Shown: positions 14,201 to 23,310 of the stretch, piece by piece | Layout: each line of letters begins with the position of its first letter | How positions within the stretch are numbered: position 1 is the first letter of the stretch | NCBI GenBank assembly: GCA_018268695.1 | Contig: JAFDWD010000407.1 | Location: 1-32,358 of the forward strand | DNA: 32,358 bases | Direction: 5' to 3' | DNA from: Actinomycetota bacterium | GTDB lineage: Bacteria; Actinomycetota; Thermoleophilia; Solirubrobacterales; 70-9 | Position numbers and translations under genes: made by a program | Notes under the pieces: generated by a model | Seen by the model: the letters and a program-made list of their open reading frames with translations, nothing else | Databases searched by the model: none | Told to the model about the DNA's origin: nothing

Positions 14201-15790
14201 ATGGTTGAGCCTCCCGAGAAGCATGGATCCACGCCGGCCGCCGAGGATGGCGTGGTGGCGTCCGAGGGCGCGAGCAAGAAACGTCGCTTCCCGACCGCCT
14301 TCACCGTCCTCGCCGCGGTTCTCGCGCTGGTCTGGATCGCCTCCTTCTTCGTCCCTGCGGGCGTCTACAAGACCGATCCCAAGACCGGCGATCCGATCCC
14401 CGGTTCCTACCACCGACTCCCCTCATGTTCGAGTGTGCCGAGCGGAACCCAGTGCGTGGACGAATCGCTCTCATTCCGGATCAAGCAGCTCTGGATCGCG
14501 CCGCCGAACGGTCTCTACGGGACCGAAAACTCCGAAGGGCTTGTGGGCCCCGAAGAAGAAGGGATCCTCTATGGGTCGGCCGCGATTTTCCTCTTCGTCT
14601 TGGCGGTGGGGGCCTTCATCACCGTGACGATGAAGACGGAGGCGATCCAGACGGGCATCGGTCGTCTCGCCCTCAGATATCGGCAGACCGGTTGGGTCCT
14701 GATCGCGATCCTCATGGTCGTATTCGCTCTGGGAGGGACCACCTACGGGATGTGGGAGGAGACGCTCGGCTTCTTCGCCCTGCTGGTTCCGTTGGCCCTG
14801 GCACTCGGCTACGACCGCATGGTCGCGGCGGCGATCATCTTCCTCGGTGCCGGCACCGGCGTGATCGCCTCGACGGTGAACCCCTTCGCCACCGGGGTGG
14901 CTTCCGATGCTGCCGGGATCAGCATCGGGGACGGGATCGGAATTCGGATCGTGATGTGGCTGGTGCTGGTCCCGATCGCGATCGCCTACGTCGTCTTCTA
15001 CGCGCGGCGCATATCTACCGACCCTGCTCGCTCGGTGGTCGGCATCTCATCGGCCGACGCGGTGGAGGCGCGCGGCTTGGTGACCAACGTACCGCGTCTG
15101 ACCGGTCGCCAGAAGGTGATCCTCTGCCTCTTCGGTTTCACGTTCCTTTGGATGATCTATGGCTTCATCCCGTGGAACGAACTCTGGCAGGAGGGGTTCG
15201 GCCGCGACTTCCCGCTGCCCACCTTCAACTCGTTCTACTTCCCCGAGGCGGCGGGCCTGTTCCTGATCATGGCGGTGGTGATCGGCCTGATCGCCAAGCT
15301 CGGTGAGGAGGGTACGGTCAACACGATCGTCGCCGGGGCCGGCGACTTCCTCGGCGCGGCCCTGATCATCGTCCTCGCCCGCGGCATCACCGTCGTCATG
15401 AAGAACGCCTACATGACCGACACGCTCCTCCACGCGATGGAAACCGTCGTCTCAGGAACCTCGAGCGGCGTGTTCGCGATCCTGGCGTTCATCGTGAACA
15501 TCCCGATCGCTTTCCTGGTGCCGTCCTCATCGGGACAGGCGGCCCTGGTGATGCCGATCCTCGGCCCGCTTGCGGGCTTCGCCGAGGTCCCGAAATCGAT
15601 CGCTGTCACCGGTTTCCAATCTGCTTCGGGCCTGGTCAACCTCTTCACCCCGACCTCGGCGGTGATCATGGGCGGCCTCGCCCTCTCCAAGGTCGGCTAC
15701 AACCGCTACCTGCAGTTCGTCTGGCGTTACCTGGCGATCGTGTTCGTCGTCGTCTGCGCCTTCGTCGGCATCGCGGCGGCAGTCAGTTGA
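14201..15790 (+). CDS. YfcC-family transporter, probable arginine/ornithine carrier of the ADI operon
   Basis: A 529-residue carrier with about 12 membrane segments belonging to the YfcC/DcuC-like group. Signs are the first helix FTVLAAVLALVWIASFFVPAG, the pair GLGA-type loops such as FLGAGTGVIASTVNPFATG, and the C-terminal FLVPSSSGQAALVMPILGPL followed by LFTPTSAVIMGG. Members next to arginine deiminase genes are thought to exchange arginine for ornithine; that role is inferred here from position. An extracytoplasmic loop with two cysteines (CSSVPSGTQC) is visible. ATG at 14201 follows GAGGTGGGTGG. It is the first gene of a tight seven-gene operon; arginine deiminase starts 17 bases after its stop. 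Confidence 0.85.
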   Translation: MVEPPEKHGSTPAAEDGVVASEGASKKRRFPTAFTVLAAVLALVWIASFFVPAGVYKTDPKTGDPIPGSYHRLPSCSSVPSGTQCVDESLSFRIKQLWIAPPNGLYGTENSEGLVGPEEEGILYGSAAIFLFVLAVGAFITVTMKTEAIQTGIGRLALRYRQTGWVLIAILMVVFALGGTTYGMWEETLGFFALLVPLALALGYDRMVAAAIIFLGAGTGVIASTVNPFATGVASDAAGISIGDGIGIRIVMWLVLVPIAIAYVVFYARRISTDPARSVVGISSADAVEARGLVTNVPRLTGRQKVILCLFGFTFLWMIYGFIPWNELWQEGFGRDFPLPTFNSFYFPEAAGLFLIMAVVIGLIAKLGEEGTVNTIVAGAGDFLGAALIIVLARGITVVMKNAYMTDTLLHAMETVVSGTSSGVFAILAFIVNIPIAFLVPSSSGQAALVMPILGPLAGFAEVPKSIAVTGFQSASGLVNLFTPTSAVIMGGLALSKVGYNRYLQFVWRYLAIVFVVVCAFVGIAAAVS

Positions 15791-15807
15791 AAACGAGAGG
15801 AGTAGAT

Positions 15808-23083: not shown

Positions 23084-23310
23084 GGATCGGAGCATCCCTC
23101 TTCCTGATCACGGTCGGGGCGATTCTGTATTTCGCCACCAACTGGCATCTGGCGCACATCGACATCGACATCGTCGGATTGATCCTGATGATCGCCGGCC
23201 TCGCCGGCCTCATCCTCGGCTTCGTCCAGCAATCGTTGGCGTCGAAGAGGGCGCGACGCGAAAGGTTCCCGGCGGAAGACCCCGACGATCCTCGACTGCC
23301 CAGGCCCTAG
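23080..23310 (+). CDS. DUF6458-like small membrane protein
   Basis: A 76-residue protein with two membrane segments: RIGASLFLITVGAILYFAT, a short loop with HIDIDIVG, and GLILMIAGLAGLILGFV, then a charged tail. The layout is that of the DUF6458 family, unknown in function. ATG at 23080 overlaps the ATPase stop (ATGA), so it is translated with the pump and could be an accessory subunit. It is the last gene of the arginine operon. Confidence 0.75.
   Translation: MRIGASLFLITVGAILYFATNWHLAHIDIDIVGLILMIAGLAGLILGFVQQSLASKRARRERFPAEDPDDPRLPRP

Follow-up and report, generated by a model that had tools for sequence, protein, structure and literature searches.

A P2-like P-type ATPase with an altered cation site in an arginine deiminase operon, and its recurrence beside arc and PPK2 genes

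For each arginine consumed, the arginine deiminase pathway yields one ATP, independently of respiration (PMC5300872, in part). The operon described here resembles the arc operons with ArcD/ArcE exchangers presented in the same source (PMC5300872, in part) in that arcA, arcB and arcC are clustered with an ArcE-like DcuC/YfcC carrier, and differs from them by an APC permease, a P-type ATPase and a DUF6458 gene. PPK2, which we find as the second partner of this ATPase, can run both ways (PMC7522526, in part). An actinobacterial P-type ATPase, CtpF of M. tuberculosis, is hypoxia-induced and belongs to the DosRS regulon (PMC3573892, in part). Among the titles and abstract openings listed by literature searches, none describes a P-type ATPase that is part of an arc operon or adjacent to PPK2.

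Layout of the operon and its flanks

We analyzed a 32,358-nucleotide stretch of DNA from an Actinomycetota bacterium, hereafter the window, whose G+C content is 65-73%. ORF and family profile searches placed seven genes at positions 14201-23310, all on the plus strand, with successive spacings of -4, 12, 1, 16, -4 and -4 bases. They encode, in order, a DcuC/YfcC-type (ArcE-like) carrier (14201-15790; PF03606, 334 bits; ATG at 14201, with an in-frame GTG 5' of it at 14189), arginine deiminase, arcA (15787-17037; PF02274, 380 bits; NF002381, 523 bits for a cut-off of 414), ornithine carbamoyltransferase, arcB (17050-18057; NF003286, 524 bits, cut-off 515), carbamate kinase, arcC (18059-19006; NF009008, 447 bits, cut-off 361), an APC-family amino acid permease (19023-20324; PF13520, 99 bits), a P-type ATPase with a P2-like fold, an altered cation site and the hinge GDAVND (20321-23083; PF00122, 162 bits) and a DUF6458 small membrane protein (23080-23310; PF20059, 31 bits, cut-off 27). 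The gene order and identities proposed by the initial annotation are thus borne out by the family searches, with spacings from -4 to 16 bases. As arcA, arcB and arcC each exceed the cut-off of at least one curated model (NF002381, NF003286 and NF009008, respectively), the locus qualifies as an arginine deiminase operon; the arcA equivalog TIGR01078 scores 454 bits, below its cut-off of 489. The carrier matches the DcuC family, scores 238 bits with the YfcC equivalog NF008611 against a cut-off of 500, and is a putative arginine/ornithine exchanger. Seven tightly packed genes of such a make-up far exceed chance and, judging by their spacing, would form one transcript. A terminator pattern scan gave two weak plus-strand terminator-like sites, both within the APC gene, out of five sites in total versus 3.0 expected from shuffles.

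The best solved relative of the APC permease is MJ0609 (180 bits to 3gi8/3gi9 versus 66 for the next molecule). Residue K158 of MJ0609 is the ApcT-like coupling lysine; the window permease has a valine in that column, hand-counted along the alignment, so that proton coupling of this permease is not inferable.

The operon is preceded by a gap (14017-14200, plus strand) that is the likely promoter region; a consensus sigma-70 promoter and a DosR-type box were sought there, and neither was found. Upstream, on the same strand, lie genes for a SHOCT-domain protein (13744-14016; PF09851, 36 bits) and a DUF6325 protein (13204-13728, start uncertain; PF19850, 43 bits), and further away, on the minus strand, a second P-type ATPase (8375-11179; PF00122, 159 bits) that is 41% identical to the one in the operon. 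The window also carries a diacylglycerol kinase-type gene (2230-3570, plus strand) and a PAP2 gene (7555-8355, minus strand). Directly behind the DUF6458 gene, a minus-strand PPK2 remnant retains the C-terminal part only (23454-23597; PF03976, 29.1 bits, cut-off 22.3), with 62.5% identity over 48 residues to the PPK2 of another ATPase locus, L069 (E 4e-16); the rest of the window gave no further PPK2 match with an E value below 0.01. It lies beside an integrase core (rve_3) frame on the same strand (23467-23919; PF13683, 86.8 bits over residues 14-75, ~23695-23880), which apparently belongs to a degenerate mobile element (remnant and element together, region 23454-24331). Given the remnant, the window ATPase seems to have once had both partners, arc and PPK2.

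arc and PPK2 genes beside the ATPase in other genomes

Scanning the species genomes with the operon ATPase turned up 92 relatives. We retained the best 80 of these, each with flanks of up to 10 kb as far as its contig reached; many of the loci are truncated at contig ends. Seven of these 80 ATPase-centred loci contain arcA, arcB and arcC: arcC-APC-ATPase-arcA-arcB-Na/H exchanger in a Nocardiopsis MAG (L002), arcA-arcB-ATPase-exchanger divergent from a second ATPase-arcC-APC in Actinomycetospora lutea (L024), APC-arcB-arcC-arcA-yfcC-PPK2-ATPase in an Acidimicrobiia MAG (L032), yfcC-arcA-arcB-arcC-NhaC-type carrier-ATPase in an Actinobacteria MAG (L045), ATPase-arcB-arcC-arcA in both Aeromicrobium massiliense (L047) and Virgisporangium aliadipatigenens (L055), and yfcC-arcA-arcB-arcC-ATPase in Nocardioides ungokensis (L071, genome G002). 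Measured between match ends, the nearest operon gene on the same strand lies 43-98 bp from the ATPase in L002, L024, L045, L047, L055 and L071, that gene being the NhaC-type carrier in L045. The chance bound for this linkage is ~5e-7, assuming one arcA per 4 Mb in every genome and ignoring kinship. Relatives of the APC permease (59-74% identity) occur in four of the seven loci (L002, L024, L032 and L071). The DUF6458 gene was considered as a conserved partner of the ATPase and dropped, as it occurs in none of the 80 loci (best 80 of 92 relatives). The exact gene order of the window was not found in the other loci examined. In L071 (7987-12693), arcB as well as the ATPase gene is broken into different frames, perhaps through sequencing error. 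One protein, P0058, is an ATPase with part of arginine deiminase attached; the attached part begins well inside the deiminase, and we read it only as a sign of adjacency between the ATPase gene and arcA, not as a functional fusion.

The neighborhood check thus upheld the proposed association of arc genes with a P-type ATPase as a linkage that recurs across several genera; a fixed unit was not supported. Among the same 80 loci (best 80 of 92, many cut by contig ends), arc genes are absent from 73. ArcA was found in 15/199 genomes sampled evenly from one class and in 82/346 from the phylum, and the ATPase in 23/199 (E up to 1e-140) and, with a stricter limit, 10/346. Besides G001, which was preselected because linked, eight sampled genomes have both the ATPase and arcA (G017, G134, G166 and G181 from the class; G355, G413, G479 and G520 from the phylum), and the two are linked in none: seven pairs are on different contigs, with two of the eight ATPases on contigs of <5 kb, and those of G413 are ~0.48 Mb apart. 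Conversely, we took 40 arcA-centred loci from the better arcA matches, one of which (L159) repeats the L045 locus. In three of them, a search with the operon ATPase detects a P-type ATPase; one of the three is G001 again, and two have other types (32-35% relatives). The initial annotation had named two observations that would together speak against its proposal: occurrence of the ATPase without arc genes elsewhere is observed, and confinement of the arrangement to one strain is contradicted by the recurring linkage. Given how scarce arc linkage is in both loci and genomes, we take arc genes to accompany the ATPase only now and then, and PPK2 to do so more often.

Neighbor clustering followed by direct search found PPK2 in 26/80 ATPase loci (best 80 of 92), on the same strand and <500 bp upstream or downstream of the ATPase in 24 of these 26, versus 0/40 arcA-centred loci (Fisher 8e-6, ignoring kinship and the difference in locus length, 1,466 kb versus 680 kb). 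We then took 20 further ATPase regions, comprising 10 of the 11 phylum matches (G001 excluded), nine of the 25 found in the class and a single one from G009; five of them repeat earlier loci (L162, L164, L168, L174 and L180). PPK2 is adjacent in five, all new (L172 and L176-L179), and arc genes are present in none. Those PPK2 partners that were tested fall into two model families (TIGR03707 and TIGR03709), and pairs outside Actinomycetota occur in Anaerolineae (L049), Methanosarcina (L060) and Bathyarchaeota (L061). A single row, L032, has arc, PPK2 and the ATPase together, and in G002 the arc operon contains one ATPase and a second lies ~0.2 kb from PPK2 on the same strand. Overall, 32/80 ATPase loci have arc or PPK2 and 48/80 have neither. 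In loci without either partner, no single alternative neighbor emerged: among 78 immediate neighbors scanned as one alignment, no family was represented in more than three, a scan whose crude ORF calling missed at least one gene (the SulP of L173). A SulP-family permease gene is present in 14/80 ATPase loci (L001, L004, L005, L007, L019, L021, L028, L039, L042, L043, L044, L069, L070 and L071), <500 bp from the ATPase in eight, and in 0/40 arcA-centred loci.

A FastTree tree was built from 86 ATPases, leaving out L032 and L071 for their split ATPase frames, together with any locus whose ATPase frame falls short of 750 residues. Counted without a shuffled-label control, the arc label (7 rows) changes 7 times on the tree and the PPK2 label (28 rows) 12 times, indicating that the pairings were gained or lost repeatedly rather than inherited as one block. 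Neither partner is found with a group of 10 ATPases that carry glutamate in M4 (nine EAFNMD rows plus L078), versus 35 of the 75 other rows with a partner (Fisher 0.004, with the second window ATPase excluded and kinship ignored); the M4 glutamate is no clean divider, being kept in three PPK2-linked rows and one arc-linked row. The second window ATPase forms a pair, with support 100, with the ATPase of L045, which lies inside an arc operon. Two ATPases beside arc genes are also seen in L024.

Fold and transport site of the ATPase

The operon ATPase keeps the catalytic motifs and has a P-type core with a P2 fold. In a fold search, the closest solved folds were SPCA1, SERCA and LMCA1, and the 50 matches listed comprise only SPCA/SERCA-like, PMCA, Na/K-, H/K-, PfATP4 and MgtA-type pumps. 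An AlphaFold2 model from 34 sequences (mean pLDDT 80.6, pTM 0.66) breaks the M4 helix at 291-295 and places K739 within helix 732-752, which we take as M6. The six SERCA ligand positions, E309, N768, E771, N796, T799 and D800, correspond in the window ATPase to D294, L709, V712, K739, V742 and V743; as a check on the columns, row L078 reads ENENTD at these six. With D L V K V V, the window protein lacks the Ca2+ ligand pattern of M4, M5 and M6, and it scores below the cut-offs of the Ca2+ models (TIGR01522, 474/798 bits; TIGR01116, 455/703 bits). It also fails as a P3A H+-ATPase, with 351/615 bits for TIGR01647 and V743 at the M6 aspartate column.

These changes extend to a whole branch. The rows with a GDA hinge coincide with a 52-row clade of the tree, in which the N768 column is L and the E771 column V or L in 52/52. 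The D800 column is V, A, S, T or G, and the M4 column T, S or V, with D in two rows (the window and L035). Thirteen rows have K at the N796 column, the lysine being found in the subclade of the window, and 12 keep N there. Among the 120 close relatives listed, the lysine motif and the GDAVND hinge are each present in 120/120; M4 is PDGL in the window and mostly PTGL or PVGL in the relatives, the variable position being V in 44/120 and E in 1/120. Named matches among these 120 include Solirubrobacterales, Solirubrobacteraceae and Streptosporangiaceae MAGs. Many listed relatives are labelled 'Ca2+-transporting ATPase' in databases, a label made doubtful by the absence from the clade of the equivalents of SERCA N768, E771 and D800. 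This 52-row clade is apparently a large, unstudied one among P-type ATPases.

Readings of the pairing and comparison with known systems

The common property of arc and PPK2 is a supply of ATP without respiration, and an energy-coupled transporter is therefore the best reading of the ATPase beside them. The arginine deiminase pathway, with its own carriers, would yield ATP without respiration, and the P2-like ATPase would spend it, keeping active transport going, presumably outward, when oxidative supply fails; in related genomes, members of this ATPase family stand beside PPK2, which can form nucleoside triphosphates from polyphosphate. We consider it an even call that the ATPase is a transporter set beside a non-respiratory ATP source as one intended user of that ATP. 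What it carries is more speculative: H+ or another monovalent ion is a first guess offered with little confidence, and Ca2+ is unlikely. That the clade as a whole is a dedicated 'emergency' transporter, fed by local ATP from arginine or polyphosphate and moving a cargo other than the P2 cations, perhaps H+ or an anion, is a tentative proposal. The coupling that the initial annotation drew from gene order thus survives as a consumer beside a producer, supported by the counts for arc (7/80) and PPK2 (26/80); an ordinary cation pump is not supported, with most classical ligands gone, and neither is a role in pH homeostasis or an obligate arc-ATPase unit.

Adjacency of arc or PPK2 and the ATPase is no proof of coupling, and the strongest competitor, to which we assign a substantial minority share of the probability, is that arc, PPK2 and the ATPase each serve low oxygen or starvation separately and answer one signal, with no ATP fed from one to the other. 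CtpF, another P-type ATPase that is hypoxia-induced within the DosRS regulon of M. tuberculosis (PMC3573892, in part), sets a precedent for it, and other genes do recur alongside: DUF6325 in 13/80 and SHOCT in 10/80 ATPase loci (best 80 of 92), both in 0/40 arcA-centred loci, so that some regional clustering is real, and a DUF1269 cluster found by neighbor clustering in 7 loci. Against shared regulation alone, DosR-type palindromes are no commoner than in crude shuffles in the 80 ATPase or the 40 arcA-centred loci, and are absent from the 10 linked loci listed; in the window, three stricter forms find no match and a relaxed form a single one, at 21446 within the ATPase gene. Likewise, the arc-linked ATPase has no universal stress protein gene within 20 kb in 7/7 genomes, three of the contigs being only ~16-21 kb long, and PPK2 is packed against the ATPase more tightly than a loose island would have it. 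The contigs rich in such stress genes, C9 of G005 and C19 of G007, are dormancy-island-like and carry other P-type ATPases.

Two further explanations have less room. Polyphosphate binds cations, and as PPK2, the commonest partner found, acts on it, the ATPase might move a counter-ion or metabolite of polyphosphate or arginine turnover (Mg2+, K+, ammonium or a basic amine), so that the product of the partner would matter and not ATP; this accounts less well for the arc operon, most acidic cation ligands are gone from the clade, and we regard it as improbable. An ordinary Ca2+ pump that sits in the arc operon by chance would agree with the names of many listed relatives and with the nearest solved structures; it is very unlikely in view of scores far under the curated cut-offs, the D L V K V V columns and an arc linkage that recurs in several genera. 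If the ATP-supply reading is true, the pairing would be an energy module that keeps one active transporter together with a source of ATP independent of respiration, here mainly in Actinomycetota; it would give a testable handle on the cargo of an orphan P-type ATPase branch and on the means by which resting bacteria maintain working membranes when oxygen is absent.

Among known pumps, PVGLP in M4 is also the form of H+ pumps, and the valine found in M4 of 44/120 listed close relatives is a likeness to the P3A H+-ATPases, from which the window protein differs by its low TIGR01647 score and the valine at the M6 aspartate column. Mycobacterial CtpF and CtpE (family 23) are, like it, actinobacterial P-type ATPases; they have PEGL in M4 (PMC3573892 and PMC5615198, both in part) where the motif reads PDGL in the window and, for the most part, PTGL or PVGL in the relatives, and on this motif we reject identity of the window ATPase with CtpF. 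Compared with the P2A Ca2+-ATPases SPCA1, SERCA and LMCA1, the cation ligand columns of M4, M5 and M6 are changed and the hinge GDG has become GDA.
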